The notes below the pieces were generated by a model. That model saw only the letters and a list, made by a program, of their open reading frames with translations, was not told where the DNA came from and made no database searches. Positions 602 to 17,453 of a stretch of 20,074 nt of DNA are shown one piece after another. Position 1 is the first letter of the stretch. Each line of letters begins with the position of its first letter. Origin of the DNA: a virus; IMG/VR virus record IMGVR_UViG_3300000525_000068, positions 1-20,074 of that record; one strand, written 5' to 3'. Position numbers and translations under genes: made by a program.

Positions 602-893
602 AACTTGCTGTTATTTCAATGTCTTCAATGGTTTTAACGGCAACTTTCACCTTCTTTCCTCCATCAGCTTCAATTTGGAGTTTGATTTCTCTCTCCAACT
701 TCTCACGCACTCTGGAATCTATCGGAGCACGCAAATATGCAGAGATGCCAATCCCTAAAACAGGGTTTTGCGTATATTCTCCTTTATGAGCAATAAGCAA
801 ATCTTCGACATGTTGTTGGTCTGAATGGCCAACAACAAAATCTCCGTTTTCTATCTGCAGATCACCGTCTTTTAATATAAAGTCCTTAGCCAT
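594..893 (-). CDS. gp25/Mu gp46-like baseplate wedge protein
   Basis: This 99-residue protein matches the small gpW/gp25 (Mu gp46-like) baseplate family in size and layout. It has a short N-terminal strand region (DFILKDGDLQIENGDFVVG), then the family's usual helix after a Q/H-rich turn (SDQQHVEDLLIAHKGE), a conserved-looking P-x-LGIGI segment (about 44-51), and a C-terminal amphipathic helix followed by a beta strand. Members build the wedge that links the tail hub to the outer baseplate. It lies directly after the spike gene, overlapping it by 8 bases, as gp46 follows gp45 in Mu. Genome annotations sometimes mislabel such Bacteroidota proteins as oxidoreductases; nothing here supports an enzyme. 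Confidence 0.75.
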   Translation of the reverse strand: MAKDFILKDGDLQIENGDFVVGHSDQQHVEDLLIAHKGEYTQNPVLGIGISAYLRAPIDSRVREKLEREIKLQIEADGGKKVKVAVKTIEDIEITASYD

Positions 894-2983: not shown

Positions 2984-5112
2984 TACATTGCTACTTCAAA
3001 ATCACGTACAGCGGCAACCATTGCCTCTGTTACTTGTTGTTTAATTCTTCCTGTTCCTTCGCTTAAATTAGTTGTGCTTAAAGTTATATTCTTCACAAGA
3101 TTCTCAATTCGCACATTAATCGTTTTCATTTCACCTCCTGAACCTTGAATTACTTTGTCTCGGTTGGGAATTGATGCACCACCTCCCGTTACTGGATCAG
3201 TATTTACGCTATTGTTATCAGTAAAAGATTGTTTATTCTTAGAAGAAGAAACTAAACCAGCATCTTCATAAGCTTTATCGGCTTTCATACTTTCTTGAAG
3301 AGCCCTGTTAGACTCCTTAGCTGCTTCATTTACCTGAACATTTTTAACATCATCTGAAGAAATAACACCAAGTGAATTTAAAGAAATCAGCATTTCATAC
3401 CATCCTGGTGCTTTTTGCTCCGCTTGAACTTGCTCCTTCAACTTCTCCTTGTAAATCTCTGCAGCTACTTCTTTTCTCGCCCGAAGCATTGCATTGTCAG
3501 CAATCTTACCTTGAATTTCGTCAATCTTTTCGTTGGTTAACTGCTCCTCCGTGTACATCTTAAGCAAGTCAGGATATTCTTTTTTTAAGTCCTCAATTGC
3601 TTTCCTACGCTCATCAGTTCCCTCTTTAGCTGCTTTAATTCTATTGGTAAGAATAGTTGTTTCAGCAATTTCTTCAGAAGCTATATCAACAGCTCTTTCA
3701 TGAACTGCGTTTGCTGCTTTCTGTGCGTTTGTGCCACTGCTAACGTAATTAGATAGTGCATAAATACCTGCCCCCAACGCTACAACTCCTGCAATCAACA
3801 ACCCAATAGGATTAGCAGTCATTGCGGCATTCCATAACCACTGTGCTGCAGTAACTGCTTTTGTGGCAACTGATGCAATGATCTTTGATTTCCCTAAATA
3901 CTTCACTCCCGAAGCTGCGGCACTTGCAATTGGCACGAATGCAGACATCTGACGTGCAACATCTGATATTGGCTCTAAGTATGCAAACACTCCTCCTGTT
4001 GCTTGGAATACTGAAACTTTGAAATCATCAATGGAGGCCATCATGCGGGCTTGCTTTTCGGCTCCCGTGTCCATCATAACCTCCGCCTGCTCCATTGCTG
4101 TATTTGTACCAGTAATTGCAACAGTCATTTCTTCTTGCTGGTCAATTGACTGAATCAAAGATTGTGCGGCTCCTTGTGTTTCACGTCCGAATAACTTAGA
4201 CATTAATGCAGCATCTCCCGACACACTTTCCAAATTTCTTAATCTGTCCGTGAATGAAAGTGATTTATCTGAAAGTGCGTCAACATTTACTCCTGCAGCC
4301 GCTAATTCTTCCTGAACATCTTTTGGAAGGAAACGACCTTGGTTAAGTGTTGCAAGTACATTTCGCAAAGCAATACCACCTTCAGCACCTTTCTTTCCAG
4401 CTTTGTCAAGTAGTTGAATAGAAGACAACATTTCTTCAAATTTCACATTAGACCTCATTGCATCTCCACCGACATTCTTAACTGCAGCTTGCAAAACTGG
4501 CAACTCTGATGATCCTTCTTTGGCTGAGGCGGCCATTGAATTCATCATTTCCGTCATCACCTTATTTGCTCCTGCTGCATCCGTAAGGTCAACTTTATAT
4601 TGGTTCATTGCAGTTGTAAGAACATTCGTTGCTCCAACTACATCACCACCCATTGTCTTGGCTAACTTCTCAGAATTCTTAGCCATCAAATCAAGCGTCT
4701 CAGGATGATCTGCAAGTACAGGGCCTAATTGCGAAAGGATTAATTTGAAAGTATCAACAGATTTCGCTGCATCTCCTCCAAATATTTTCGCATTTGCTCG
4801 TGCTTTTTCTCCGAGTTCATCTAATTTATCGCCTGTTAATCCTGTAATAGCAGATAAATCCGCCATTGATGTTTCAAAATTTAGTCCTGGTCCTGCTATT
4901 TCTGAAAGTGCTCTTGTGGTGTTCTCTAAACCTTGCGTTATGCTTACAAATGAGATGTTCGCAATATGTTTTTGCATATTGGAAAACGAAGATTTTGAGG
5001 TCTTTTGAATCTCACTAACATCTCCCTTTAGCTTTCCTGTATCCTTGCGAATATCAGAGATTGCCTTGAAGATGTTACCTTCTACATCAATTGTAAATTT
5101 AGCATCGCTCAT
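2983..5112 (-). CDS. Tail tape measure protein (TP901 family)
   Basis: This 709-residue protein sets tail length and travels inside the tail tube. Residues about 70-350 carry the TP901-type core: an ETSMADLSAITGLTGDKL segment followed by helices with VVGATNVLTTAMNQY, AASAKEGSSELP and the GKKGAEGGIALRNVLATLNQ signature. Residues about 424-455 form one long hydrophobic stretch (NPIGLLIAGVVALGAGIYAL), a membrane-active segment common in tape measures. Residues 465-620 are charged helices, likely coiled coil. The last 80 residues are polar and end in a short helix. By the usual rule of about 1.5 angstroms per residue the tail would be near 100 nm. The ATG is 3 bases after the stop of the frameshifted chaperone, matching the lambda G/GT-H order. 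Confidence 0.93.
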   Translation of the reverse strand: MSDAKFTIDVEGNIFKAISDIRKDTGKLKGDVSEIQKTSKSSFSNMQKHIANISFVSITQGLENTTRALSEIAGPGLNFETSMADLSAITGLTGDKLDELGEKARANAKIFGGDAAKSVDTFKLILSQLGPVLADHPETLDLMAKNSEKLAKTMGGDVVGATNVLTTAMNQYKVDLTDAAGANKVMTEMMNSMAASAKEGSSELPVLQAAVKNVGGDAMRSNVKFEEMLSSIQLLDKAGKKGAEGGIALRNVLATLNQGRFLPKDVQEELAAAGVNVDALSDKSLSFTDRLRNLESVSGDAALMSKLFGRETQGAAQSLIQSIDQQEEMTVAITGTNTAMEQAEVMMDTGAEKQARMMASIDDFKVSVFQATGGVFAYLEPISDVARQMSAFVPIASAAASGVKYLGKSKIIASVATKAVTAAQWLWNAAMTANPIGLLIAGVVALGAGIYALSNYVSSGTNAQKAANAVHERAVDIASEEIAETTILTNRIKAAKEGTDERRKAIEDLKKEYPDLLKMYTEEQLTNEKIDEIQGKIADNAMLRARKEVAAEIYKEKLKEQVQAEQKAPGWYEMLISLNSLGVISSDDVKNVQVNEAAKESNRALQESMKADKAYEDAGLVSSSKNKQSFTDNNSVNTDPVTGGGASIPNRDKVIQGSGGEMKTINVRIENLVKNITLSTTNLSEGTGRIKQQVTEAMVAAVRDFEVAM

Positions 5113-5115
5113 TTC

Positions 5116-5355
5116 TTATTTTGCTCCTTTCGCTTTTAAAACTGTTGTGTATGCCTCCAATGCTCCATCTCGCACGGCGGCTTTTTGTTCTGAATAATTG
5201 TGATGGTTCAACCACAATGCATCAGCGGCTAAGATTGAAAACTCTTCCTCTGAGAGGGTTTTGGGGTCAATTTGAAAGTGTGACCGAATCAAGACGCCGA
5301 GCTTCCTGATATCTGCCTTACCCTCTTCATGGGGTATAGATGAAGAGTTTATCCG
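5116..5355 (-). CDS. Frameshifted C-terminal extension of the tail chaperone (gpGT-like)
   Basis: The -1 frame is open for 79 codons from CGG at 5355 to a TAA at 5118-5116, three bases before the tape-measure ATG. It fills the 237-base gap that otherwise looks non-coding. The frame holds no ATG at all, so it should be made only by slipping on A AAA AAC, giving a 195-residue fusion (116 residues of the short form plus 79). The peptide is ordinary and helical (for example TLSEEEFSILAADALWLNHH), with the acidic-to-basic profile of a folded domain. By analogy with lambda gpGT, this domain would contact the tape measure or recruit tube subunits. The homology itself is not provable by eye; the reading frame, stop position and signal are seen directly. 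Confidence 0.85.
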   Translation of the reverse strand, partial: RINSSSIPHEEGKADIRKLGVLIRSHFQIDPKTLSEEEFSILAADALWLNHHNYSEQKAAVRDGALEAYTTVLKAKGAK

Positions 5356-5361
5356 TTTTTT
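5323..5361 (-). promoter_or_regulatory. Programmed -1 frameshift signal in the tail chaperone gene
   Basis: On the minus strand the slippery heptamer A AAA AAC (5361-5355) is in the correct zero-frame register (TTA AAA AAC). A 7-base spacer (GGATAAA, containing the zero-frame stop) leads to a perfect 8-bp stem: CTCTTCAT (5347-5340) pairs with ATGAAGAG (5330-5323) around a 9-base loop. Heptamer, spacer of 5-9 bases and downstream hairpin are the three parts of a classic -1 signal. Frameshifting in this gene is conserved across many tailed phages. Confidence 0.88.
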
Positions 5362-5702
5362 AAGACACCAGTCAGAACTCTAAATGACTTAGCGATTCCT
5401 CTTGCCAATGCAAATTTGAATTCATCATCTTTGGTGAATACATCCGAACCACCTAAATGACAATTGTCGTAACAATATAGATTATTTGCGACTGCATCAT
5501 TCGGGTGCAATTGCTCAGCTGCTTGAACGATTTCTAAACTTGGCTTTTGAAAATAACCGATATGAACTTCCTCTCCATCAGGAACATCAAACCTCTTAAA
5601 TCTAGTTCCATGCTCTTTTCTCCATTTGTTTAGTTGAACCTCTGTCGCTTCTCCAATGAATACCAATTTCACTTCTTTCTTCTTTACTAATTCTTTTGCC
5701 AT
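5349..5702 (-). CDS. Tail assembly chaperone, short form (lambda gpG-like)
   Basis: A 117-residue protein directly upstream of the tape measure and downstream of the tail tube, the conserved place for tail assembly chaperones that coat the tape measure before tube growth. The sequence (for example VKLVFIGEATEVQLNKWRKE, then EEVHIGYFQKP) gives no motif that names a family, so the call rests on position, size, and the frameshift signal at its 3' end. The last codons are TTA AAA AAC GGA TAA: the zero-frame stop comes two codons after a canonical A AAA AAC slippery heptamer. Most ribosomes should stop here to give the short form; a fraction should shift into the downstream frame. The start ATG-GCA-AAA has an A-rich leader and no Shine-Dalgarno sequence. 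Confidence 0.8.
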   Translation of the reverse strand: MAKELVKKKEVKLVFIGEATEVQLNKWRKEHGTRFKRFDVPDGEEVHIGYFQKPSLEIVQAAEQLHPNDAVANNLYCYDNCHLGGSDVFTKDDEFKFALARGIAKSFRVLTGVLKNG

Positions 5703-5721
5703 AGTTGCATTTATTGAATCA

Positions 5722-5746
5722 AAGCACCCCGTTGATAGGGATGCTT
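5722..5746 (-). terminator. Stem-loop between tail tube and chaperone genes (possible partial terminator)
   Basis: In the 64-base gap the minus strand reads AAGCATCCC, a 7-base loop, then GGGGTGCTT: nine pairs with one G-U. It is followed by TTGATTCAAT, a weak T-rich tract. It lies just after the two most abundant tail proteins (sheath, tube) and before low-copy assembly proteins, so it may lower transcription into the chaperone and tape measure or protect the upstream message. An RNA-stability role is equally possible. Confidence 0.45.
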
Positions 5747-5766
5747 CTAGTTTATTTTAATTTTGA

Positions 5767-6198
5767 TTATATTACGTTGTAATCAATGTGAGACGTGATT
5801 AACTCGTGTGAATGCATCATCTCTGTATCTCCTTGAGAAACATCAATCCCGTTGCTTTTGAATTGACAGTTACGAATAATGTCTGTTCTTAAAAGCTGTT
5901 GATTCTTTGGTTGAAAAGTTACCACAATATCAAAAGGTGGAATGTCCTGAAGATTTTGACCTGGTGCTAAAGAATTCATAATTGCTCTTGTTTCAAATTC
6001 AAGAAGATCAATTGATGCCGTAGGATCAACATTCCCATCACCTCTTGCAATTGGATGATTTCCTGCACCTCGAATGTGCTCTTTTGCCTGAGCGTCTGCA
6101 TAAGTGATCTTTTTTATTCCAGATACAGTTCTCGATAAAAGATTTACTTTGATCGATCCCCAGCTTGGCTGTACGCCGTTAATAAATGGTTGTGCCAT
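5767..6198 (-). CDS. Tail tube protein (Mu gpM position)
   Basis: A 143-residue protein immediately after the sheath gene, the standard place and size (about 115-170 residues) for a myovirus tail tube subunit. It begins with FINGVQPSWGSIKVNLLSRT, where a short strand leads to a basic loop and then KKITYADAQAKEHIRGAG, as in XkdM-like tubes that open with a 'what it is built on' strand and an acidic/basic loop. The C terminus is beta-rich with NCQFKSNGIDVSQGDTEMM, resembling the last tube strands that face the lumen. Stacked hexamers would form the rigid inner tube through which DNA passes. The gap from the sheath stop is 10 bases, so both should be translated at high level from one message. 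Confidence 0.75.
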   Translation of the reverse strand: MAQPFINGVQPSWGSIKVNLLSRTVSGIKKITYADAQAKEHIRGAGNHPIARGDGNVDPTASIDLLEFETRAIMNSLAPGQNLQDIPPFDIVVTFQPKNQQLLRTDIIRNCQFKSNGIDVSQGDTEMMHSHELITSHIDYNVI

Positions 6199-6208
6199 TG
6201 TGAATGTT

Positions 6209-7381
6209 TTAATTTGGGTTAATAAATCCGATGTTAGCCACTATTTCTCTCGCTTTACCGAAAGGAACTAATGACAACTGGGTGTCGATGATTGATGTTG
6301 CAAGAACATCTTGAGCAGGATCAATGTAGAATTTGAAACCTGACAATTCGCCTGGCATCTGTTCAGTAATTGCTTTGTCCACTTTCGCTTTCATTGCCAT
6401 TACGAAAGTTGCATCCAATTCTCCACTCGTTGGATCAACTGCAACTGGCCCACCAAGATCAGGTAGCAATGTTGCTCTTACGATTCTAGTCGCTTTGTTA
6501 ATAGTACGTACACTTTCTATGTATGCAAAGTCATCTGTTGCCGCTGTACATGTATGCGTGTCGTTGAAGTAAACTCCTGCGATTCCTACATGCTTTCTAA
6601 AGAATATTGCACCTCCAGTATTCGCTGCTTCCAATTTTGAATTGGTAATTGCGGACATTTTCTGATTGCTTATTGAACCAATGCTCAATGTTCCTCCTTG
6701 CATGTTAAAGTCTTGCACATAGTCAATTCCTACATGAACTTGCGCTTTTGAAATTGCTCCTAAAGCTGTTCCAATTGCTGCGTATGTTTCAAAGGCAGTG
6801 TCTTGACTTGCAACTGCGAAATCTTGACCAACCATCACTGCAACATTCTCAGCGTTTAAATCTCTGAAATCATCTGGAGTGTCGATATCATATCCTTTTC
6901 CTTCCAATACAATTAACACAGGCTTGTGACCAATGTACAACGCTGCTGCTTGTATTTGTGCCTCTGCAACTGCCGCCAATAGATCAGTTGTATCTGTAAC
7001 CGCAACCGTTGGGTTGTAGGTAACTGCAATTTGGTTCAGCTTTCCATCTGCTCCATCTTGAAGCGTTGGTGCTTTCTTCACACAATCAACATAAGTAGTT
7101 GCTTGTGCTACCAATAGAATATGAAGCTCACCGTTTGGATTAACACGGAAGAATTCTTTGATGTGCTCGTACACCAAAACAGTATTGGTTGTGTCGTAAG
7201 CTGCATCAAGTTTCAAAACTTCCGCTTCTTTTACACTTGTTAACATATACACAATGTCTAATTGTGCACCGCCAACAACAGTAACTCCATTAGCGATTAA
7301 ACCGCTAATCATGTCCGTAGATGGTTCTCGTCTTCCAAGACCTCCACGGACTTTAATGATTTTTACATCGTTCAATGACAT
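6209..7381 (-). CDS. Contractile tail sheath protein (DUF2586-like)
   Basis: A 390-residue protein resembling the DUF2586 tail sheath family found in Mu-like and Bacteroidota phages. The N terminus (VKIIKVRGGLGRREPSTDMISGLIANG) matches the family's opening, with a Gly-rich turn after a short strand. The middle has a Rossmann-like alternation: NGELHILLVAQATTY, KPVLIVLEGKGYD, then ENVAVMVGQDFAVA. The C-terminal part (about 290-390) includes TINKATRIVRATLLPDLGGPV and a final FYIDPAQDVLATS segment, corresponding to the conserved sheath core that packs on the tube and carries the linker arms. Its presence shows the phage is a myovirus. It lies 4 bases after the upstream gene and is followed by the tube, as in Mu (L then M). 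Confidence 0.88.
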   Translation of the reverse strand: MSLNDVKIIKVRGGLGRREPSTDMISGLIANGVTVVGGAQLDIVYMLTSVKEAEVLKLDAAYDTTNTVLVYEHIKEFFRVNPNGELHILLVAQATTYVDCVKKAPTLQDGADGKLNQIAVTYNPTVAVTDTTDLLAAVAEAQIQAAALYIGHKPVLIVLEGKGYDIDTPDDFRDLNAENVAVMVGQDFAVASQDTAFETYAAIGTALGAISKAQVHVGIDYVQDFNMQGGTLSIGSISNQKMSAITNSKLEAANTGGAIFFRKHVGIAGVYFNDTHTCTAATDDFAYIESVRTINKATRIVRATLLPDLGGPVAVDPTSGELDATFVMAMKAKVDKAITEQMPGELSGFKFYIDPAQDVLATSIIDTQLSLVPFGKAREIVANIGFINPN

Positions 7382-7384
7382 AAC

Positions 7385-7879
7385 TTATGAATTTGTTGGT
7401 TTATGCTCATCTGAATCGTCAGCGTCTGCATCTTCTGAATCTTCCTCACCTTCCTCTCCAGCGTTTAAATTGTCAGGATTAAAAGGAGTGTCTAGGAACG
7501 TTTGAATTGTCTCAGCAATTACTGGATTTGTTGCCTCTTCATCAATTGTGATTTCATTCTCTTTTGCGAATTCAATCAATTGAGATTTGTTCATTCTCTT
7601 GAGATTCGGAGCTTCAATCTCTGAAACATCAGAAGTTTCTTTTGAAGCTTCAGTTGCTGAAGCTTTAGGATCTTCTTTTGAAGGATCAACCTTTTTCTTT
7701 TCAGATAAATCAGAATTCTGAATGGTTTCTAATTTCAAGCCGTTGTCATCTGCATGGCGTTTCGCCCAAATCTCTGCTTTCTTTTCGAAAATCTGACCAT
7801 CTGACGTGATCACACACTCCTCTGATTCTTTATAATTTTTGAAAAAATCTTCTAACTCTTTTTTATACTTCGTTACCAT
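7385..7879 (-). CDS. FluMu-type acidic protein with a HeH/LEM-like helix pair
   Basis: I place the start at ATG 7879 (MVTKYKKELEDFF), giving 164 residues. A longer in-frame reading to 7951 would run 79 bases back into the spanin-like gene, whereas this ATG overlaps that gene by 7 bases (TTATGGTAA). The N terminus holds ECVITSDGQIFEKKAEIWAK, a pattern I remember from small Bacteroidota phage proteins that end before the tail genes. A polar linker is followed by NKSQLIEFAKENEITIDEEA at about 111-130, which resembles a HeH/LEM-like extension helix pair as in Mu gp35-type (FluMu) proteins. The tail is strongly acidic (EEGEEDSEDADADDSDE). Probable role: a minor structural or DNA-contacting accessory protein of the head-tail region. 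Function not proven. Confidence 0.6.
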   Translation of the reverse strand: MVTKYKKELEDFFKNYKESEECVITSDGQIFEKKAEIWAKRHADDNGLKLETIQNSDLSEKKKVDPSKEDPKASATEASKETSDVSEIEAPNLKRMNKSQLIEFAKENEITIDEEATNPVIAETIQTFLDTPFNPDNLNAGEEGEEDSEDADADDSDEHKPTNS

Positions 7880-8352
7880 AATTTTGATTTTAGAATAATA
7901 AATACTATGATGAAAATCAGCAGACCAGATAAGATTAGAATAGCTGTCCAATTTTGTTTGATTACCACCTCCTTGATGGCTTCCTGCTGAATTACTTCTT
8001 TATTTGTTTTTTGATTTTGATACCATTTCTCCATTGAACTTATGACAAGCTTCTCAACTCGTTCACAAATACACTCTGCCGTAATAGTACTATCTCGATA
8101 CTTAATGATAGTTTTAACACCATTTGAAGAATTGGATATTTCGCCTTTTTCGATGAGTTCTTGAAGCATTGCTTCAAGCTTGTTGTTGCGCTCTTCAAAT
8201 ACAGCTGTATCAAGTTTTACAACTTTCGTGTATGAAATTGAATCCCGATGATCAAGCGTTGTCTCCTTCGTCTTCTCAATGCTTTTTGAAAGCTTGCAAG
8301 AGGAAATTGACAACGCCGCAATCATGGCAACTATGAACATTAAATATCTCAT
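7873..8352 (-). CDS. Probable unimolecular spanin (lipoprotein with C-terminal membrane anchor)
   Basis: A 159-residue protein with both ends anchored. The N terminus is a lipoprotein signal (MRYLMFIVAMIAALSISSC, lipobox ISS-C19). The C terminus is a 20-residue membrane helix at about 135-155 (ILILSGLLIFIIVFIILKSK). Between them lies a polar region with coiled-coil spacing (ERNNKLEAMLQELIEKGE). An outer-membrane lipid anchor plus inner-membrane C-terminal helix is the topology of u-spanins such as phage T1 gp11, which join the two membranes at the end of lysis. It is the last gene of the lysis cassette, overlapping the small membrane protein by 4 bases. A two-piece Rz/Rz1 pair is not seen elsewhere in the window. 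Sequence homology to known spanins cannot be judged by eye. Confidence 0.7.
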   Translation of the reverse strand: MRYLMFIVAMIAALSISSCKLSKSIEKTKETTLDHRDSISYTKVVKLDTAVFEERNNKLEAMLQELIEKGEISNSSNGVKTIIKYRDSTITAECICERVEKLVISSMEKWYQNQKTNKEVIQQEAIKEVVIKQNWTAILILSGLLIFIIVFIILKSKLW

Positions 8353-8657
8353 CCTATTTTTTTACTTAATTTCTCAAGCTGTCTTGAGAGTTGTTTGATT
8401 TTGAACTCCTGCTTATCCTGAACATGATACATTTCTCGCAATTTCACACGACAATCAGATTCTTTTTTGTCAGAGCTTTCACGCTCTTTGGTCAGGTAAT
8501 CCAATAGACCTTGCGAACTTGCAAGAAGCTTCTCAGCTCCTTCAGCGAGTACTTGCGTGTCTCCACGTTTCGACTTCTGTTTCCCGCCAAGCATCCATCC
8601 TGCAGCTGTTGTTACAGCACCAATGACTCCCACGATTATTTCGTTCTCGTAATTCAT
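8349..8657 (-). CDS. Small membrane protein of the lysis cassette (holin candidate)
   Basis: This 102-residue protein has one membrane helix near the N terminus (IIVGVIGAVTTAAGWMLGG, about 7-25). A basic stretch (KQKSKRG) follows, then a long charged helix with coiled-coil spacing to the end (LTKERESSDKKESDCRVKL, then QLSRQLEKLSKK). The acidic N terminus and basic flank after the helix predict N-out, C-in, leaving the coiled coil in the cytoplasm. That argues against an inner-membrane spanin and fits a class III-like holin or another membrane regulator of lysis. It lies between the amidase and the spanin-like gene with 4-base overlaps on both sides, so it belongs to the lysis unit. The amidase lacks a signal peptide and would need such a partner. 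Confidence 0.55.
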   Translation of the reverse strand: MNYENEIIVGVIGAVTTAAGWMLGGKQKSKRGDTQVLAEGAEKLLASSQGLLDYLTKERESSDKKESDCRVKLREMYHVQDKQEFKIKQLSRQLEKLSKKIG

Positions 8658-9277
8658 CTCATCTCTAAGTATTGATTGAGAGTTTCAGCGAGCAACACTC
8701 CAGTTTGACATTGAAAATCTGAATTTCTCAAAGTGCGTACACCTTCATCGTTGGTGTGAAATTCTAATTCAATAAGAATAGCAGGGCACACTGTATCTCG
8801 CACAACTGCGAAGTTGGCTTCCTTCCCAAGGTATCCATCGCTCAAATCTGTGCGTAATGGAATTTTTGGAAAATTATTTTTGAAACCTTTCAACCACAGA
8901 TCGGCAATTATGTCCGCTTCTGTATTTCCGTAGAAAGTAAATGCTTCATGACCTCTCGCACTGGAAGATTTAGCACCATTAGAATGTATAGAGAATAGAA
9001 TTGCATCCCTATTTCGAGAAAGCTCGTTTGCTCTCTTCACACGATCATTGAGCGAGATGTCTTTCCATTCTGATGGGCACACAGTAAACTCAACTTCATA
9101 ACCGTAAATTCTGAGAGTTTCAGCCCATTCACGAGCGAAAACTCTATTCCCAACTCCTTCGTAATAAAACGAGCCATCTACCTCTATGCGAGAAGCGTTG
9201 CTTGGATTAATAGCTCTACCAGTTGAAGGATCAAACGTCCCGTGTCCTGCGTCTATTATAATCAATGGCTTTTTCAT
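8654..9277 (-). CDS. N-acetylmuramoyl-L-alanine amidase endolysin (Amidase_3)
   Basis: A 207-residue zinc amidase that cuts the bond between N-acetylmuramic acid and the stem peptide. Zinc ligands are visible as H12 in IIIDAGHG, E40 in YYEGVGN and H98 in ILFSIHSNG. The catalytic glutamate is E170 in AILIELEFHTN, where the usual E-x-G-F reads E-L-E-F. The protein is a single catalytic domain with no cell-wall-binding module and no signal peptide, so export to the periplasm probably depends on the membrane protein encoded next. It ends in ATGA overlapping that gene. Its place between the capsid gene and the tail genes, instead of ahead of the head genes as in Mu, is a notable difference in layout. 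Family assignment is firm. Confidence 0.93.
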   Translation of the reverse strand: MKKPLIIIDAGHGTFDPSTGRAINPSNASRIEVDGSFYYEGVGNRVFAREWAETLRIYGYEVEFTVCPSEWKDISLNDRVKRANELSRNRDAILFSIHSNGAKSSSARGHEAFTFYGNTEADIIADLWLKGFKNNFPKIPLRTDLSDGYLGKEANFAVVRDTVCPAILIELEFHTNDEGVRTLRNSDFQCQTGVLLAETLNQYLEMR

Positions 9278-9312
9278 GGCTCGTTCTTCTCTCTCTGGGT
9301 TGGGTTATAATA

Positions 9313-10323
9313 CTATACTGCTGGCGAATAGATCGCTGCAATTCCTTTCCCTCTGATAGGCTTAGATAAACCTCTCATTTGGAATCCGACTTTATCACCA
9401 CGTACATCTACATCTCGTAGGTTTGCAAATAAATCCAGAGTTCCTTGCGCTCGCATCACTTCATTCTTATGGAATGCGAAAGAAGCTCTCACATCAGTTG
9501 AAGCTGCAGCAGCTGCTTGCCAAGCAACCTTAGCGTCAGTAGTCTTATTATATCTCGGAAGTCTTTTGTCTGCTAAGAAGTATAACTTGAATCCTAACAA
9601 CATGCGCTTATCAAGTACTTTGTTAAATCTGTCTACATCTTCATTTTCCAAATCTTCTTGATGCTGGCTTGAAAGAATCAATATTCTACCCTCTTCAGGA
9701 ATCTCTGAATTATTGAATGCAGTTCTCAATTTTACGATGTCAGCATACAACAGTCGTTTATTTCCATTTCCGTTATTTCCACCAGTAGTTTTGATTATTG
9801 GCGTGTTTGCCGTATTTGTAGCAGGCACTAAATTAAACGCTGCACGTTCCATGAAGAACATTCTTAAGGAATTCTTATGGCCATCTGCAATAGATTTCAT
9901 TTTATCATAAGCTAATTCTGCTTTTTCCATTGCTGTCAATAAAGTTGTCTCCGTGTCATAGGTCTCTAAAGCCAAAGCAATAGCTGTATCAGTTCTTTCA
10001 GCTACAGCAATGGGATAACTTGTGTTATTAAGCAATACTGCAGGGTCATCTCCCGCCTCTGCGAGGTTAATTGTGTTATTGTCCACAAATGGCGACATAT
10101 CACGCATTTCACTCAAGAACATGTCATCAGCATAGAAATCTTCAATGATTTCATCTAACCAAACTTCCTTATTCAATCCTGCATAAGCAGCACCTTTAAT
10201 TGTTGGGGTAAGAGCCGATAAGGCTATTAGTCCAGCACCTGCTGCTAGAACTGGGAGACCTGTTAATAAGGTCACTGTGAACGCCATTAAGGCGATCGGA
10301 ATAAATCCAAATATCTTTTTCAT
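9313..10323 (-). CDS. Major capsid protein (HK97-fold type) with hydrophobic N terminus
   Basis: A 336-residue protein directly after the protease/scaffold gene, as expected for the major capsid protein. I place the start at ATG 10323, since the codon before it (10326) is GTG. From about residue 45 (AYAGLNKEVWLDEIIEDFYAD) the sequence follows Bacteroidota phage capsid proteins: an N-arm, a long helix with ETTLLTAMEKAELAYDKM, a loop region, and a P-domain-like segment RILILSSQHQEDLENEDV. The C-terminal part (ASFAFHKNEVMRAQGTLDLF) resembles the final capsid strands. Residues 4-41 are almost wholly hydrophobic (IPIALMAFTVTLLTGLPVLA), like a signal peptide or two membrane helices, which is unusual for a shell protein. 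It may be removed by the prohead protease or used at the inner membrane. Confidence 0.8.
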   Translation of the reverse strand: MKKIFGFIPIALMAFTVTLLTGLPVLAAGAGLIALSALTPTIKGAAYAGLNKEVWLDEIIEDFYADDMFLSEMRDMSPFVDNNTINLAEAGDDPAVLLNNTSYPIAVAERTDTAIALALETYDTETTLLTAMEKAELAYDKMKSIADGHKNSLRMFFMERAAFNLVPATNTANTPIIKTTGGNNGNGNKRLLYADIVKLRTAFNNSEIPEEGRILILSSQHQEDLENEDVDRFNKVLDKRMLLGFKLYFLADKRLPRYNKTTDAKVAWQAAAAASTDVRASFAFHKNEVMRAQGTLDLFANLRDVDVRGDKVGFQMRGLSKPIRGKGIAAIYSPAV

Positions 10324-10329
10324 CACTTA

Positions 10330-10788
10330 TTAATTTGAGTTTTTAACAACTTGAGCGTAACGGTCAGGATCATTGTCCTTCATCGCTAACAGCCCTGAAT
10401 AATCTTTCTTTTTCCAATCACGGAATGACCATGCGTCACGGCCATCAGCGTTTGGTATTGTTGGCTTTCCACCTCCTGCAATTGCAGTTAGGTTTTCTTT
10501 GCCTGGCATACCATCAATTGTCTCAGTAGCCAATTGAATGTCATACTCAGCCAACTTTGTGATGCGCTCTTCATTCTTAGCGGTCACTTTGCCTGATTTC
10601 TTTCCTGATGCAATTAAATCTGTAACTGCTTTCTGTTGCGCATCTTTCTGCGCTTTCTCCATGCTTGTGACCTTCGCCTCTAACACTTCGTTTCTAGCAA
10701 TAACAATTTCAACGGCAGCAGTAATTTGATCGTCTTTTGCCTCGGATTCTAATCCAAGAGCGACAATCGTCTTTGCGTTTAACTTCAT
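10330..10788 (-). CDS. Nested scaffold protein from an internal start in the protease gene
   Basis: M219 of the protease frame begins a 152-residue protein (MKLNAKTIVALGLESEAKDD). It follows a polar, Pro/Asn-rich linker (EEKPQNSNTPKTNNM), as expected at a domain border. The bases ahead of the ATG are AT-rich and unstructured (CCCCCAAAACAAATAAC), the usual form of a Bacteroidota start. Lambda Nu3 is made in the same way from within the C protease gene. The separate product would supply scaffold in excess of protease. It is inferred; no direct evidence of initiation exists. Confidence 0.5.
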   Translation of the reverse strand: MKLNAKTIVALGLESEAKDDQITAAVEIVIARNEVLEAKVTSMEKAQKDAQQKAVTDLIASGKKSGKVTAKNEERITKLAEYDIQLATETIDGMPGKENLTAIAGGGKPTIPNADGRDAWSFRDWKKKDYSGLLAMKDNDPDRYAQVVKNSN

Positions 10789-11442
10789 GTTATTTGTTTT
10801 GGGGGTATTACTATTTTGGGGCTTCTCCTCTGCTTGGAAGAAACGTGATTTTAGGTCTTCGTCTGATGCGAAGTTTTCCATACATGCGGCAATATTTGCC
10901 ATGTCATGGTAGGCGTTGATATCTTCATCAGAAAGTGTAGGATCAACAACTTCATCAACGATGTTGTCCGTTAACGCCATATCTGAAGAAAACCAATTAT
11001 CTCCTTCTAACCATGCTTTCAAATCTTCCTCTGTCTTGGACGTTCGTTTCATATAGTATGCTGTGAATTGAGATTCTAAAATTCTGAGCACCTTTGCGTA
11101 CTTCTCCATTTCAATGGCTGTACCTTCAACTGATCCAGATGGTGCGTGAATCATGATCCAACCATTATCTGCAATCTTGATTTTGTTAGCGGCCAACATT
11201 ATAATAGTCGCCATACTTGCAGCAATGCCATCTATCACAATTGTTAAGTCACCTTTAAATGCTCTTAAAGTGTTATAGATTAGATTTCCATCGAACACTG
11301 AGCCTCCTGGTGAATGCATGTGAATAGTTGCGGATTTCCTGCCTTTCAAAAAAGCAGAAAGTTGACTAGTGATGTACTGGCCATCTCCACCCCATATTCT
11401 TCCATATAATTTTGCGGTGTCTCCGCTTGAATTGAATATCAT
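10330..11442 (-). CDS. ClpP-like prohead protease fused to a scaffold domain
   Basis: A 370-residue protein. Residues 1-170 form a ClpP/SppA-like protease: the oxyanion loop HSPGGSVFDG at 43-52, the nucleophile S76 in IDGIAASMATII, and the base H99 in GWIMIHAPSG. The third residue is probably an aspartate in the NWFSSDMALTDNIVDEV segment near 150-165. Residues about 219-370 are helical and charged (KVTSMEKAQKDAQQKAVTDL), as expected of a scaffold that is digested during head maturation. It ends six bases before the capsid ATG. It is the first gene of the minus-strand late operon and faces the divergent control region. An in-frame ATG at 10788 can produce the scaffold alone. Confidence 0.88.
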   Translation of the reverse strand: MIFNSSGDTAKLYGRIWGGDGQYITSQLSAFLKGRKSATIHMHSPGGSVFDGNLIYNTLRAFKGDLTIVIDGIAASMATIIMLAANKIKIADNGWIMIHAPSGSVEGTAIEMEKYAKVLRILESQFTAYYMKRTSKTEEDLKAWLEGDNWFSSDMALTDNIVDEVVDPTLSDEDINAYHDMANIAACMENFASDEDLKSRFFQAEEKPQNSNTPKTNNMKLNAKTIVALGLESEAKDDQITAAVEIVIARNEVLEAKVTSMEKAQKDAQQKAVTDLIASGKKSGKVTAKNEERITKLAEYDIQLATETIDGMPGKENLTAIAGGGKPTIPNADGRDAWSFRDWKKKDYSGLLAMKDNDPDRYAQVVKNSN

Positions 11443-12034: not shown

Positions 12035-13558
12035 ATGGCAGGACCACACATACAGAAAGACAAGCAAGCTCAGAAAAGATACGAAGAACTTTGTAGAAGG
12101 ATTTCTGAAAGTACAGGGTTTGATCACTTTGAAAGCATTCAGAATAAAGCGGAGAGAATCAAAGGATTTAAGGGTGATTTTAAGCGATTTGTTGAATATT
12201 ACTTTCCACACTATGGCGATTCTGAAACCCCTGAATTTCACGTGCGCATTGCTAGACGAGTAAAAAGGTCTAAGACTTACAAAGCTTGGTTGAAGTGGGC
12301 ACGTGGACATGCGAAATCTGTAGTGGCTACTGTACTACTGCCATTATGGTTGTGGATTAATGATGACATTAAATTCTTAGTTGTAATTGGACAAAACGAA
12401 GACAAGGCAAAGATACTCCTTGGAGATTTACAAGCTGAATTTGAGAACAATCAAAGGATAATTAATGACTTTGGAAAACAACAACAACTCGGAAGTTGGG
12501 AAGATGGATTTTTCACAACTAAATCAGGATTCAAAGCCAAAGCACTTGGAATGGGTCAAGAACCTCGTGGATTACGTGTTGGTGCTGATAGGCCTGATAT
12601 GATTGTTGCAGATGATTGGGAAACCAAAGACACCGCTAAGAATGCAGCGAGACAGAAAGAGTATGCTGAATGGTTCTTGCGTTCTGTTATTCCTACAATG
12701 GATGATAAGAATAGACGTGTGTTGATTGCTCAAAACAAGTTTCATCCTCAAATGATATTTGACCTTGTTGTTGATGGCAACGATGAATGGAAAGAAGACA
12801 GAGTTGATGCTTATGATGCTGTAACCTACGAACCAATTTGGAAAGATAAGTATGATCCTGAATTCTTCAAACTGCAGGAGAAAACAATGGGAACTATTCG
12901 AGCGTTGGCAGAATACAACAACACACCGCACATTGAAGGTACAATGTTTAAGGACGAATATATTCAATTTGCGAAGATTCCACGCATAGATCACTTTGAT
13001 GCTATTTTAGGCACTTGGGATGTTGCTTATGGCGGAACGAAAACAAGTGATTTCAATGCCATCCGTATTTGGGGCTTGAAAGACAATGTGAAGTACCTGA
13101 TTGATTGCTATGTGAAGCAATCTGTAGTTCGTGAAGCTGTGCAATGGATTAAGGATTTCCAGTCGAGACTTCCACGAGGTGTGAAAGTTCAAGTTGGGTT
13201 TGAAGCACAATTTTGGAACGAGGCAATATTTGACGCCATTCAAGAAGTTGAAAAGGAGGCAGGTTTCCGTTTGAATCTAATTAAAATGGAGCGCAGACGA
13301 GGCAATAAGTATGATGCTATGTGTGAGATGCTTCCCGATTATCAAAACGGAAGAGTATTCTACAACCGACAATTGAAAGGGCACAACGACACGCAGACAG
13401 GAATTGCACAATTGAAAGGAATTGAGCCGGGTTACAAATCAAAAGACGATGCTCCAGATGCAGACAAATATGCTTTCGATGAATTGGACAGATACAAAGG
13501 ATCTTCTTTTCATTCGGGTGGAAGATTAGGAGGATCACGTACATCACGTAAATACTAA
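12035..13558 (+). CDS. terL: Terminase large subunit (packaging ATPase/nuclease)
   Basis: A 507-residue protein that powers DNA entry into the prohead and cuts it at each headful. The N-terminal ATPase has a Walker A-like loop WARGHAKS at about 88-95 and a Walker B with catalytic acidic pair MIVADDWE at about 189-196. The C-terminal nuclease of RNase H fold shows acidic residues in the expected order: D328 (GTWDVAYGG), E389 (VGFEAQFW) and an aspartate in DAPDADKYAFDEL near 471-483. The segment between them is of normal length, and no domain is missing. The C terminus is Gly/Ser/Arg-rich (GGRLGGSRTSRKY), probably a portal-contact tail. It is followed within five bases by the gp36-like gene, in the usual Mu-like order. 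Confidence is high. Confidence 0.95.
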   Translation: MAGPHIQKDKQAQKRYEELCRRISESTGFDHFESIQNKAERIKGFKGDFKRFVEYYFPHYGDSETPEFHVRIARRVKRSKTYKAWLKWARGHAKSVVATVLLPLWLWINDDIKFLVVIGQNEDKAKILLGDLQAEFENNQRIINDFGKQQQLGSWEDGFFTTKSGFKAKALGMGQEPRGLRVGADRPDMIVADDWETKDTAKNAARQKEYAEWFLRSVIPTMDDKNRRVLIAQNKFHPQMIFDLVVDGNDEWKEDRVDAYDAVTYEPIWKDKYDPEFFKLQEKTMGTIRALAEYNNTPHIEGTMFKDEYIQFAKIPRIDHFDAILGTWDVAYGGTKTSDFNAIRIWGLKDNVKYLIDCYVKQSVVREAVQWIKDFQSRLPRGVKVQVGFEAQFWNEAIFDAIQEVEKEAGFRLNLIKMERRRGNKYDAMCEMLPDYQNGRVFYNRQLKGHNDTQTGIAQLKGIEPGYKSKDDAPDADKYAFDELDRYKGSSFHSGGRLGGSRTSRKY

Positions 13559-13563
13559 ATATT

Positions 13564-13986
13564 ATGATATTAACATTAGGAGATTACTCCAAAATCATTG
13601 ACAGCGAAGAGTTGGAAGATGTTGTTGGTGATTTAAGTATGGCAGGTTGGGAATTGCTTCAAGATTTGGAAGGTGATGCAATTGACGAAATGAAAGGTTA
13701 CTTGGCGGTCCGTTACGATGCAGAGAAGTCTCTTGACGACGCAGAGAATGCTAGTATCGGAGTTCTTAAGAGAAAGCTTGTCGATATGATTCTCTATGAT
13801 GCATTTGCGCTTATTGTTCCAAATAACATTCCTGAGCTTCGCACAACTCGTAGAGACAATGCAATTGAATATCTTGAGAAGATTGCAGACGGTTTTATTA
13901 ATCCAGCATTTCCAATACTAGAAGATGAAGCAACAACGCCTTTGCGCTTTGGTTCTGAACTTCCTAAATCTGATAATTACTTTTAA
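13564..13986 (+). CDS. Mu gp36-like head-tail connector protein (DUF1320-like)
   Basis: A 140-residue, mainly helical protein with the size and gene place of the Mu gp36/DUF1320 family, which acts at the head-tail connector. Its middle holds DAIDEMKGYLAVRYDAEKSL and KRKLVDMILYDAFALIVP, and its end has RRDNAIEYLEKIADGFINP. The YL-x-x-RYDA element and the R-R-D-N-A-x-x-Y-L-E helix are typical of this family. In Mu gp36 lies with the tail genes; here it lies between terminase and portal, as in several Bacteroidota prophages. The start ATG-ATA is preceded by TAAATATT with no Shine-Dalgarno site. The portal ATG follows the stop by 2 bases. Confidence 0.8.
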   Translation: MILTLGDYSKIIDSEELEDVVGDLSMAGWELLQDLEGDAIDEMKGYLAVRYDAEKSLDDAENASIGVLKRKLVDMILYDAFALIVPNNIPELRTTRRDNAIEYLEKIADGFINPAFPILEDEATTPLRFGSELPKSDNYF

Positions 13987-13988
13987 TA

Positions 13989-15188
13989 ATGGCAGAAAAT
14001 AAACAAGCATTAACGAAACGTCCTAACAAGGTACTGGACACAATTATAAGAACATCAACAGCACGAGCTCGTCGCCAAATTGGAGATTGGACAACTGCAT
14101 TGCGTTCGGCTGAAAATGTTGAGAATCCTAACCGTTCAAGGTTATACGGAATTTACAACGACATCATGATTGATGCGCACTTATCTGCAGAGATCAACAA
14201 ACGAATGAACTCCTTATTGGAGAGTAGTTTTGATTTGATGGATGAAAATGGCGTGCCAAATCCCGAAGCTACAGCAATGCTGAACAAAGGATGGTTTACG
14301 AAATTACTGCAGTATGCTTGGGAATCTCGCATGTGGGGCTATTCATTGGTAGAAATAACAGATTTAACTGCTGAAGGTAGAATTGGAGATGTGAATTTGG
14401 TTAACCGTTGGCACGTGATTCCTGAGAAAGGAATTGTCATTAAGAAGATTGGTGACGAGAGTGGAGAGGATTATAAAGAGAATCCAAAATACACGCCTTG
14501 GCTTTTTGAGATTGGTGACGACTATGATCTAGGGTTGCTTAATAAAACTGTGCCGCATGTTCTTTACAAAAGATTTGCTCAAGCTTCATTTAGTGAATTT
14601 ACGGAGATATTCGGAGTGCCGCCAAGATACGTTAAGACACCCAGTAGAGATGCTGAACATTTGAATAAGTTAGAAATCATGTTGAGAGACATGGGTACTT
14701 CTACTTATGGAGTATTTGGAACGGATGAAGTGTTCGATACTATGGAAGTACCAAATTCTGATGGATCACTGTATAAGAATTTGATTAACATCGCAGCCAA
14801 CGAGATTTCAAAACTATTGAACGGCTCTGTAATTGGAGAGCAATCTGAAGGAGGTTCAAAAGCCAAAGAGCAAGTAGGAATGGATTTGTCGCAGCAGATT
14901 TGGAATGGTGACAAAACATGGATGGAGCGCATCATTAATGAGGAGTGGTTGCCTAAGATGATTGAAATGGGATATCAATTTGTAAATCTTCATTTCGAAT
15001 TTAACCGAGAAAAGAACCTGCAGGCAGAGTGGAAGATTGTAAGTGGAATTCTTACGCACTTCACCGTTGATCCTGAATACATTCAAGACACATTTGGTGT
15101 TCCTGTTTTGGAGCAGAAAATGGATGCAGTTACACCTGCAGAAAATAGCGGTGCTAAAGCTTTAGGTTCGGGGTCTTTTTTCGACTAA
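13989..15188 (+). CDS. Portal protein (Mu gp29/DUF935-like)
   Basis: A 399-residue protein with the features of Mu gp29-type portals. The N terminus contains RSRLYGIYNDIMIDAHLSAE then KRMNSLLESSFDL, matching the family's 'x-Y-x-D-M-x-x-D-x-H-L-x-x-x-x-x-K-R' opening (a helix followed by a tail-proximal strand). The middle has WGYSLVEITDL and PHVLYKRFAQASFSEFTEIFGVPPRY, typical DUF935 segments. The C-terminal end has IVSGILTHFTVDPEYIQDTFGVPV. Portals form the 12-fold ring through which DNA enters and leaves the head. The last codons are GGG TCT TTT TTC GAC TAA: a slippery T TTT TTC heptamer lies two codons before the stop and a hairpin lies directly after it, so a fraction of ribosomes may continue into the MuF frame. 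Confidence 0.9.
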   Translation: MAENKQALTKRPNKVLDTIIRTSTARARRQIGDWTTALRSAENVENPNRSRLYGIYNDIMIDAHLSAEINKRMNSLLESSFDLMDENGVPNPEATAMLNKGWFTKLLQYAWESRMWGYSLVEITDLTAEGRIGDVNLVNRWHVIPEKGIVIKKIGDESGEDYKENPKYTPWLFEIGDDYDLGLLNKTVPHVLYKRFAQASFSEFTEIFGVPPRYVKTPSRDAEHLNKLEIMLRDMGTSTYGVFGTDEVFDTMEVPNSDGSLYKNLINIAANEISKLLNGSVIGEQSEGGSKAKEQVGMDLSQQIWNGDKTWMERIINEEWLPKMIEMGYQFVNLHFEFNREKNLQAEWKIVSGILTHFTVDPEYIQDTFGVPVLEQKMDAVTPAENSGAKALGSGSFFD

Positions 15189-15210
15189 GCCCCGAAGCTG
15201 CGTTCGGGGC
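15176..15210 (+). promoter_or_regulatory. Candidate programmed -1 frameshift signal at the portal-MuF junction
   Basis: The portal frame reads TCT TTT TTC GAC TAA. This places the heptamer T TTT TTC (15176-15182) in the register needed for simultaneous -1 slippage. A 6-base spacer (GACTAA, holding the portal stop) leads to a perfect 8-bp stem GCCCCGAA/TTCGGGGC (15189-15196 with 15203-15210) around a 6-base loop. The -1 frame is open from 15158 through the whole MuF gene. No T-tract follows the hairpin on either strand, so it is not a normal terminator. All parts are seen directly; frameshifting itself is inferred. Confidence 0.75.
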
Positions 15211-15241
15211 ATCGTTGAGAGAGGTATATGATCATGCGGTG

Positions 15242-16453
15242 ATGAGTAGCAACAGACGTTTGTTTACCAAGTCGAAATCTGAGGAAGTGGCCAAGGATTA
15301 CTTCGATGGAAAGACAGACAAAGTTGTTGAGGAGATTTGGAAGGAAACGGATAAACAACTCCGTAAAGGTGTGACTGCTGGATATGGAACTACTGGATAT
15401 GACGTGCAAGATTTTGACACGGTGAAGCAGTTGAATGAGAATGTTGGTGTGTTTTCTGCGTTCAAATCTTATAGAATGAACAACGAGATGAAAACTAATC
15501 TTACCGATGATAAAGGGAATAAGCGTTCTTTCGATGAGTTTCTGAAGGAGTATAATAAAGTAGATTCAAAGTACAACATCAACTATTTGAGAGCGGAGTA
15601 TAACATCGCACAAAAGCAATCTGCAGCTGCAAATCAATGGCAAGATTTCAAACGTGACAGTAATCTCTATCCCAACTTAAAGTATATGCCAAGTCGTTCG
15701 GCAGAACCTAGAGAAAGCCATAAGCAATATTACGGAGTGATCAAACCAATTGATGATGCGTTTTGGGACACAGCAACTCCGCCACTTGATTGGGGATGTA
15801 GTTGTTGGGTTACAAATACTGATGAAGGAGCAGATGATAGAGCAGTTGAAGCTCCTCTTCCAATTGATGGCGTGGCAGGAAATTCAGGAAAGTCAGGTCA
15901 AATCTATTCGAAAAAGCATCCTTATGTTGCTGATGTTCCCAAACCTGAAAAAAAGAAAGTGGAGAGCTTCAGTAATGCAATGGCCGAGAAGCATCTTAAT
16001 GATCAATTCGTTGAGAGCAAAGTTGGGAAGGGAAAAGTGAAACTAAGTCTAACGCATCCGAAACAAGGAATGAAAGAACGTTTAGATTTTGCTTATAACG
16101 CAACAATGGACAACGGTAAGACATTTGAATTGAAAGGTGCTAACAGTGTGCCTTTCCGATATAACAAAGTAGATGGTGACTTGTCAACGTTTGCCAAAAA
16201 GACGAAGCTATTCGATAAGTATGACAAAGGTAAATCGCTTGAGAAATTGAAGTCTTCATTTCTTGGAATTGAAATTTCGGGAAAACTGTCCAGGAACAAT
16301 TTAAAAGGAATCGCTCAAAACATTCTGACAGGCTTTACAGACAACAAAGCTTGTAAATTTGTGATTGTTAGAAATGACAAGAAAACAACAATTATGCAAC
16401 GTGATTTGTCATTGGATGGTATTGTGAATCAGATTTCAAAAGACTTGATGTAA
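15242..16453 (+). CDS. MuF-type minor head protein with an extra C-terminal domain
   Basis: The first in-frame ATG (15242) gives 403 residues. The frame is open back to 15158, with only a TTG at 15215 as another start, and probably is entered by frameshifting from the portal. The conserved MuF region spans about residues 110-195 of this form: helices with YNINYLRAEYNIAQKQSAAA, then RESHKQYYGVIKPIDDAFWD and PPLDWGCSCWV. This is the R-x-x-H, FW, PP and C-x-C pattern of the Mu F family. MuF proteins aid head assembly and sit inside the head near the portal. A linker (KKHPYVADVPKPEKKK) leads to about 150 further residues (KVKLSLTHPKQGMKERLDFA onward), not recognised, and possibly an injected effector or nuclease domain. 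It overlaps the next gene by 1 base. Confidence 0.82.
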   Translation: MSSNRRLFTKSKSEEVAKDYFDGKTDKVVEEIWKETDKQLRKGVTAGYGTTGYDVQDFDTVKQLNENVGVFSAFKSYRMNNEMKTNLTDDKGNKRSFDEFLKEYNKVDSKYNINYLRAEYNIAQKQSAAANQWQDFKRDSNLYPNLKYMPSRSAEPRESHKQYYGVIKPIDDAFWDTATPPLDWGCSCWVTNTDEGADDRAVEAPLPIDGVAGNSGKSGQIYSKKHPYVADVPKPEKKKVESFSNAMAEKHLNDQFVESKVGKGKVKLSLTHPKQGMKERLDFAYNATMDNGKTFELKGANSVPFRYNKVDGDLSTFAKKTKLFDKYDKGKSLEKLKSSFLGIEISGKLSRNNLKGIAQNILTGFTDNKACKFVIVRNDKKTTIMQRDLSLDGIVNQISKDLM

Positions 16454-16980
16454 TGGCTGATTTCAAGAAATGGGATGAGAAAATAAGGAAACTGGAGGAA
16501 TACATGCGTAATGATATTCAGACAAGAATTGGAGTTGAATCTGTGAACCATTTTAAAGAGAGCTTCGAGAATCAAGGATTTACGGACAGTTCTTTAGAAA
16601 AGTGGGATGAAGTAGAAAGACGAAAGCCTGAAAGTCCTTGGTATGGATTTAAATACAAAGGAACCGCTAAGAATCCAAGAAAAAAGCAAAGGAAGAGTGG
16701 ATTATATACGAACTACTCTCCAGCTGCAACTTCTCGACAGATTTTAAGCGGAGAAACGGATAACTTGATGAATGGCATTCGGTGGACAAAGCGAGGAAGG
16801 AATGTTTACGTCACAGCCAACACAAAATATGCGCAACTGATTAATGAAGGAGGAGCGATGAGAGTATTTGGCAAGCACTCTGCAACGATGCCAAAACGGC
16901 AATTCATGGGAAGATCAAAAGTATTGAATAAGAAGATTGAGGTAAAGATAATGAAGGATTTAAAAAGGATAATGAGATGA
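16453..16980 (+). CDS. Tail completion / virion morphogenesis protein (Mu gpG-like)
   Basis: A 175-residue protein of the Mu gpG/phage_tail_S family (virion morphogenesis), which helps finish the tail or join it to the head. The N terminus is a charged helix with RNDIQTRIGVESVNHFKESF, matching the family's opening helix. A region of strong positive charge follows (AKNPRKKQRKSG), and near the end the characteristic TKYAQLINEGG, then MPKRQFMGRS appears at about 134-164, followed by a closing helix. It begins at TAATG, overlapping the MuF stop by one base, and its own stop overlaps the next ATG (ATGA). It lies in the plus-strand head operon, away from the rest of the tail genes. Confidence 0.85.
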   Translation: MADFKKWDEKIRKLEEYMRNDIQTRIGVESVNHFKESFENQGFTDSSLEKWDEVERRKPESPWYGFKYKGTAKNPRKKQRKSGLYTNYSPAATSRQILSGETDNLMNGIRWTKRGRNVYVTANTKYAQLINEGGAMRVFGKHSATMPKRQFMGRSKVLNKKIEVKIMKDLKRIMR

Positions 16981-17453
16981 TTATATATAACACACTTTAC
17001 ACAGCAATTAAAGAGCGGTTAAACTCTGTTCAAAGTATCAAGTTGATTGATTGGTTCAATGAGCAATATCGAAATTACGAGAGCGAAAAAGCTATTCCAA
17101 GACGAGCTGTATTTATTGAAATACTTGATCCTGTAAATTGGGATCAAATGACTCCAGGACAAAGTGGAGATGTTAGTGTAAGATTGCATTGTGTGATTTA
17201 CGATGTGAAAGACTCTCCAGTGCCAGCTTTAGAATTTACGCAAGAAGTATATGAAGCATTGCAAAGAAAGGATATGATGGACGTTAATGGCCATCAAATT
17301 ACAACGGAGATGTTGAGAAGTGAAAGTAATATGCCTAAGCGTTATGATCAAGTGAAAGTAACGCAGATTACTTTTAGAGCTCACTTATATGATGGGAGTG
17401 GGATTGATGAAGGGCAAAGTGTGAATGTGCCTTTTAATGTGAATATTAATTAA
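16977..17453 (+). CDS. Probable tail terminator protein (Mu gp37 position)
   Basis: A 158-residue protein directly after the gpG-like gene, where Mu encodes gp37. It has an alpha/beta layout: an N-terminal helix (LYTAIKERLNSVQSIKLIDW), a core strand AVFIEILDPV, a GDVSVRLHCVIYDV strand pair, a helix LEFTQEVYEALQ, and a C-terminal strand VTQITFRAHLYD. Tail terminators of the Mu gp37 and lambda gpU kind share this order and length, and cap the tail tube when it reaches its set length. No diagnostic motif is visible, so the call rests on layout and position. It is the last gene of the plus-strand operon; the minus-strand genes converge on it after 10 bases, with only a weak GTTAA-TTG-TTAAC dyad between. 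Confidence 0.6.
   Translation: MIIYNTLYTAIKERLNSVQSIKLIDWFNEQYRNYESEKAIPRRAVFIEILDPVNWDQMTPGQSGDVSVRLHCVIYDVKDSPVPALEFTQEVYEALQRKDMMDVNGHQITTEMLRSESNMPKRYDQVKVTQITFRAHLYDGSGIDEGQSVNVPFNVNIN

Follow-up and report, generated by a model that had tools for sequence, protein, structure and literature searches.

In the tail chaperones G and GT of lambda, SPP1 (17.5/17.5*) and many other phages, ribosomes slip by -1 on a heptamer of the form X XXY YYZ near the end of a gene, and a short and a long product are made in a fixed ratio. We describe a candidate of similar design at a different place: the junction between the portal gene and the gene for a MuF protein in a 20,074-nucleotide (nt) stretch of viral DNA (positions 1 to 20,074 of the IMG/VR record IMGVR_UViG_3300000525_000068; hereafter, the window). 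(The portal is the sole unique vertex of a tailed phage.) We consider it highly probable that a programmed -1 ribosomal frameshift at this junction makes a minority portal-MuF fusion, which would dose MuF in the head in the style of Gag-Pol.

Known systems

The heptamer of the SPP1 chaperone genes, UUUUUUC, is identical to that of the window (PMC6316719). However, the two genes at the window's junction are portal and MuF rather than tail chaperones upstream of a tape measure gene, which places it outside the G/GT class. Chaperones leave the virion, in contrast to a portal and a minor capsid protein, and the extension made here would be a complete MuF protein of roughly 280-840 amino acids (aa). 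Frameshifting also gives a minority of copies of some structural proteins a C-terminal extension, as reported for the coat proteins of phages A2 and T3 and for Listeria phage PSA (PMC5009743) and for SPP1 gp17.1* (PMC6316719). In contrast to our case, these are coat or tail proteins, and the accessible part of PMC5009743 includes no portal.

Covalent joining of the same two proteins is known from the plain portal-MuF fusions of Microbacterium phages EA3/EA5/EA8/EB (PMC7302621), and we found further examples in Porphyromonas phages. In a plain fusion every portal subunit would bear MuF, whereas here the ratio would be set by frameshifting. The first-pass annotation of the window knew of no described case that joins portal and MuF; given these plain fusions, that statement is to be limited to the frameshift route, for which we found no report in the open-access literature (subscription papers and supplements lay outside the search). 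Thus, frameshifting in structural genes and portal-MuF fusion are both already known, and the frameshift route between portal and MuF appears to be undescribed.

Two other comparisons concern MuF itself. SPP1 gp7, a MuF protein, is bound to the portal, and a few copies are carried into the procapsid (PMC6316719); covalent attachment, with frameshifting to set the dose, would serve the same end. Temperate phages also encode MuF polymorphic toxins, Bxa of Bacteroidales among them, with variable C-terminal toxin domains like those of many proteins described below, but in the passages found in PMC11699363 these toxins are stand-alone genes and frameshifting is not mentioned, whereas here translation would begin at the portal. 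Retroviral Gag-Pol is a functional analogy only, between unrelated viruses and proteins: there too, a structural subunit bears an internal enzyme as a minority fusion, which is packaged in a set dose.

A frameshift cassette at the end of the portal gene

The portal gene (positions 13989-15188, + strand, 0 frame) encodes a 399-aa protein of the Mu gp29 type that ends in ...GSGSFFD* and matches the Pfam family Portal_Mu (PF06074, or DUF935) with E = 4.7e-59 and 200.8 bits, against a curated cut-off of 23.9. Its codons start at positions divisible by 3, and its end reads ...TCT TTT TTC GAC TAA. The slippery heptamer T TTT TTC (15176-15182, + strand) is in register with this frame, with 0-frame codons TTT at 15177-15179 and TTC at 15180-15182. 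It is followed by a 6-nt spacer, GACTAA (15183-15188), which includes the portal stop TAA (15186-15188), and then by a putative stimulatory stem that starts at +6 from the heptamer. In this GC-type stem, the 5' arm GCCCCGAA (15189-15196) and the 3' arm TTCGGGGC (15203-15210) form 8 perfect base pairs (bp) around a 6-nt loop (15197-15202). Both arms are identified from the sequence and the RNA fold, and the 5' arm also from covariation in other loci. The first-pass annotation had described the register, spacer, stem and loop in the same terms, and it was right base for base.

The -1 frame has no stop from 15158 up to the stop codon at 16451-16453. Tandem slippage would join portal residues 1-398 to the 423 residues encoded after the slip (15182-16453, + strand), to give the 821-aa product that had been predicted. 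In the -1 frame, the earliest ATG is at 15242, as the first-pass annotation noted, but it overlooked a TTG at 15215-15217 (+ strand), 26 nt past the portal stop, which is the earliest possible MuF start codon.

By itself, the stem of the window is modest (RNA fold of -16.4 kcal/mol, z = -2.4, with 4 of 200 shuffles equally good; in a second comparison with shuffles, p = 0.014). Like known frameshift cassettes, the window has an in-register heptamer within the frame overlap, a structure 5-9 nt downstream of it, and conservation both of this signal and of the protein encoded downstream in the new frame. A chance origin is ruled out by comparison with all close relatives, with 65 viral contigs, and with cassettes that were retrieved without reference to the cassette. 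The hairpin is not a terminator: it has no T tail, and a terminator scan made no call. A search of Rfam at the gathering threshold found no known RNA family at the junction.

We propose that the majority of ribosomes would stop at the TAA at 15186 and release the portal protein alone. Some ribosomes, paused by the GCCCCGAA/TTCGGGGC stem, would slip on T TTT TTC and read on into MuF, yielding the 821-aa fusion. Slippage on this heptamer, stimulated by the stem, is what established knowledge of -1 frameshifting would lead us to expect. Because the fusion would carry the full portal domain, a few copies could enter the 12-subunit portal ring. Co-assembly of this kind in the 12-fold ring would place a small fixed dose of MuF inside the head, along with its variable and often toxin-like C-terminal domain.

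The cassette is conserved in relatives of the portal

In IMG/VR we identified nine relatives of the portal (L002-L010; 68-100% identity). TTTTTTCGACTRAGCC and a stem starting at +6 are kept in all nine, down to 68% portal identity, as are the T TTT TTC heptamer and the 6-nt spacer. In L005-L010 the loop is one whole codon shorter and the stem still closes, and the MuF frame runs for about 80-144 nt without a start codon. Stems in this group have one-sided changes from C-G to U-G (GCCCTGA/TCGGGGC and GCCTCGA/TCGGGGC). In L009, these arms pair slightly differently in the minimum-energy fold. Searching isolated phages at the DNA level, with the junction as query, gave no match, so we turned to protein searches.

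We also scanned with the pattern TTTTTTCGACTRAGCN{5,25}CGGGGC, which fixes the 3' arm and leaves the complementary 5' arm (CCCCG) free. All 65 of the matching IMG/VR contigs have a portal/MuF junction at the match, where one frame reads FFD* and the other FFRLS.... Some of these contigs are near-copies of each other, so contig counts are not counts of independent events. In a genome collection with one genome per species there were 27 matches, and 24 of these were at portal/MuF junctions of Bacteroidota (Bacteroides, Parabacteroides, Paraprevotella, Mediterranea, Chitinophagaceae, and Flavobacterium). The other three, in other phyla (L088, L094, and L099), are not at portal genes and are chance matches. 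The complementary 5' arm was present in nearly all of 60 distinct cassettes, even though the pattern did not demand it.

For samples that were blind to the cassette, we collected Portal_Mu loci from Bacteroidota genomes using Pfam alone and annotated phages using tblastn. Many of these loci carry the cassette, including forms that the scan pattern could not reach, with the heptamers A AAT TTT, A AAA AAG/A, or G GGA AAG. The hankyphage, which is a widespread gut phage of Bacteroides, has T TTT TTC GGGAAA GCCCCG/CGGGGC (L116). The stem is GCTCCTCA/TGAGGAGC in Elizabethkingia TCUEAP3 (L120) and GCCCCAC/GTGGGGC in L139. Bacteroides BS-TP1 (L121) combines the heptamer A AAT TTT with the stem GGGAGAGGGG/CCCCTCTCTC, and L154 combines A AAA AAA with CGGCTGAGG/CCTCAGCCG. 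In hankyphage-type cassettes (L104-L106, L116, and L137), the stop lies about 40 nt past the heptamer. L161 has a cassette whose MuF frame is broken soon after and is open again in another frame; it is probably from a decaying prophage.

For statistics on the stem we used 33 cassettes that were not chosen by the pattern, three of which are near-identical to pattern matches. The stem score had its maximum exactly 6 nt past the heptamer (mean 15.5) and was about 7 at offsets of 0-4 and of more than 10. When 5' arms and downstream sequences were swapped between loci, the score fell to 10.5, and none of 5,000 such permutations reached the observed mean (p < 1/5000). Distinct arm pairs covary: the same positions hold G-C, C-G, or A-T, or else C-G, T-A, G-C, or A-T. 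The conservation of heptamer, spacer and paired stem, with compensating changes, is what the first-pass annotation had asked of homologous loci. We take it as established, at the level of sequence, that the cassette is there with its register, spacer and stem, that it is conserved, and that the two proteins are portal and MuF.

The -1 frame encodes a MuF protein

The window's MuF matches the Pfam family Phage_Mu_F (PF04233) with E = 4.5e-8 and 34.3 bits (curated cut-off 29.6), and all 77 of the -1 extensions that we scanned match this family (E <= 0.01). Their C-terminal domains include LPD3 (12 extensions), CdiA_C (11), Gln_amidase (9), PBECR2 (5), and ART (1), which, judging by these profile matches, is the known range of MuF polymorphic toxins. 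An AlphaFold model of the window's MuF built with 41 relatives has a mean predicted local distance difference test (pLDDT) score of 80.7 and resembles viral head morphogenesis proteins. (An earlier model from 4 sequences had a pLDDT of 42 and was useless.) A fold search of the PDB with the model gave no match. The C-terminal domain has a moderate-confidence fold, and neither profile nor fold comparison identified a known domain in it above threshold. In the model, the 13 residues right after the slip form a lower-confidence linker ahead of the first MuF helix, which would suit a hinge joining MuF to the portal.

The -1 frame is maintained as protein ahead of any start codon. Across 92 cassettes, the median distance from the portal stop to the earliest ATG in the MuF frame is 140 nt, and in 81 of them this distance exceeds 60 nt. 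Between L171 and L173, over 110 codons ahead of any start codon, the proportion of synonymous differences (pS) is 0.40 and that of nonsynonymous differences (pN) is 0.06, which implies selection on the protein encoded by the -1 frame. (Other pairs in this test were chosen by identity and weigh less.) The deposited MuF genes begin 276 nt (L120), 114 nt (L121), and 99 nt (L119) past the portal stop, as expected if the true beginning of MuF was missed, so these starts are probably wrong. In the Bacteroidota sample and the phage loci, wherever a long -1 open reading frame lacks a heptamer, a start codon lies right at the portal stop or close to it; L174 is the exception.

Probable gain and loss of the frameshift cassette

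In a tree of 130 portals, made with a quick method, one clade of 88 portals has full support; it comprises 78 with the frameshift cassette, 6 with a fusion, and 4 with separate genes. Six frameshift loci with A-type heptamers (L150, L154, and L170-L173) lie outside this clade, among portals with separate genes. From this placement, the trait was probably gained at least twice, with different heptamers. The first-pass annotation had proposed to look for true fusions in a few genomes, and there are several: a seventh T puts portal and MuF in frame in L020, L058, and L079 (Flavobacterium covae), and the Porphyromonas phages and L151 have in-frame fusions as well. The seven-T cassettes L020, L058, and L079 (and also L108) retain the stem, and their portal stop is reachable only by a +1 slip. 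They are possibly an inverted arrangement, in which slippage yields the short form.

Portal and MuF are separate products in Mu, D3112, lotta8-1, and FPSV-S1, and Mu and D3112 have no slippery heptamer at the portal junction. Outside the Bacteroidota, in 40 loci from two phylum samples (30 and 10), no open -1 junction had a heptamer in register. (These samples centred on the genomes of Oceanibaculum and Desulfofundulus, which we treated as Pseudomonadota and Bacillota.) In Mu, D3112, and these 40 loci, MuF, where it follows, has an ordinary start at the junction.

Alternative explanations

Several observations weigh against the proposed frameshift fusion. Seven loci (L119, L146, L155, L158, L170, L171, and L173) have a heptamer without a clear stem. 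Relatives in the same portal clade, Pippivirus and FPSV, have separate genes, so the fusion is not indispensable. In the hankyphage-type locus L116, an ATG overlaps the portal stop, which could allow both free and fused MuF there. The stemless junctions have the heptamers A AAA AAG/A or G GGA AAG.

One alternative accepts the frameshift but gives it a different purpose: it would serve only to keep MuF expression low, with the fusion then cleaved or its portal part left outside the ring, and MuF would act on its own as a minor capsid protein, like that of SPP1. Such an outcome would agree with the phages that make the two proteins separately (Mu, D3112, lotta8-1, and FPSV-S1) and with SPP1 gp7, which enters the head by noncovalent binding to the portal (PMC6316719), and a protease might cut in the modelled linker before the first MuF helix. 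However, there is no known protease site, and the in-frame fusions of Porphyromonas phages, F. covae, L151, and Microbacterium phages (PMC7302621) imply that a covalent fusion must be tolerated. We think that this explanation is unlikely.

Alternatively, RNA polymerase might slip on the run of six Ts, which would give some mRNAs with portal and MuF in one frame. Most members do have a T run as their heptamer, others have A runs, and versions with seven Ts are in-frame fusions. But a stem at a fixed 6-nt spacing fits the entrance of the ribosome, and it cannot form in nascent RNA while the polymerase sits on the run; heptamers that are not homopolymers (A AAT TTT and G GGA AAG) occupy the same place; and six Ts is generally short for efficient polymerase slippage. 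This makes transcriptional slippage very improbable.

We give similarly little credence to MuF being translated from the TTG at 15215 or the ATG at 15242 by coupled re-initiation, with a heptamer and stem that are incidental or act on mRNA stability. The TTG is 26 nt past the portal stop, and at some other cassette loci, too, a start codon lies close to the stop. However, in many relatives 80-300 nt pass without a start, and the -1 frame ahead of any start is conserved as protein. Furthermore, every other + strand junction of the operon starts within a few bases (13558/13564, 13986/13989, 16453/16453, and 16980/16977), a tightness that the first-pass annotation had noticed. In the samples examined, a heptamer in register is generally missing where the -1 frame opens with a start codon at the portal stop.

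Finally, errors are common in homopolymers, and a single added T would join the frames, but a broken gene or a sequencing error is refuted by the comparative data: the run of six Ts recurs in the same register in independent records (65 viral contigs and reference genomes) with a conserved stem, and so is not a sequencing slip.

Gene neighbourhood

Upstream of the portal gene is a gene for a Mu gp36-like adaptor (13564-13986, + strand; Pfam Phage_Mu_Gp36, E = 4.1e-6). Downstream of MuF is a gene (16453-16980, + strand) that is in the position of Mu G and has no Pfam match. Its ATG overlaps the MuF stop; this overlap at 16453 is a normal coupled junction, in contrast to the portal/MuF junction. 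The + strand (12035-17453) carries the genes for terminase, adaptor, portal, and MuF, and the - strand (1-11442) carries those for protease, capsid, and tail.

The window also contains a tail chaperone-like gene upstream of the tape measure gene (5349-5702, - strand), with a heptamer A AAA AAC at 5355-5361. The gene ends in A AAA AAC GGA TAA, and the -1 frame continues to the tape measure gene. From its sequence, this is likely a classical G/GT frameshift, so the portal/MuF junction is probably not the only place where this phage uses frameshifting.

Implications for phages of Bacteroidota

On balance, we favour the view that in phages of Bacteroidota, frameshifting sets the number of MuF-bearing portal subunits per virion, that their cargo is often a polymorphic toxin, that this arrangement arose at least twice, and that some lineages moved to plain fusions or to separate genes. 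If so, a portal fusion made in a controlled ratio would account for the placing of a few MuF copies inside each head, and the number of MuF copies per virion should track the efficiency of frameshifting. Many phages and prophages of Bacteroidota would need to be re-annotated, as their MuF proteins, toxin versions included, have probably been given the wrong start. The MuF toxins of these phages, so far studied in free form, would be joined to the portal from their synthesis onward.
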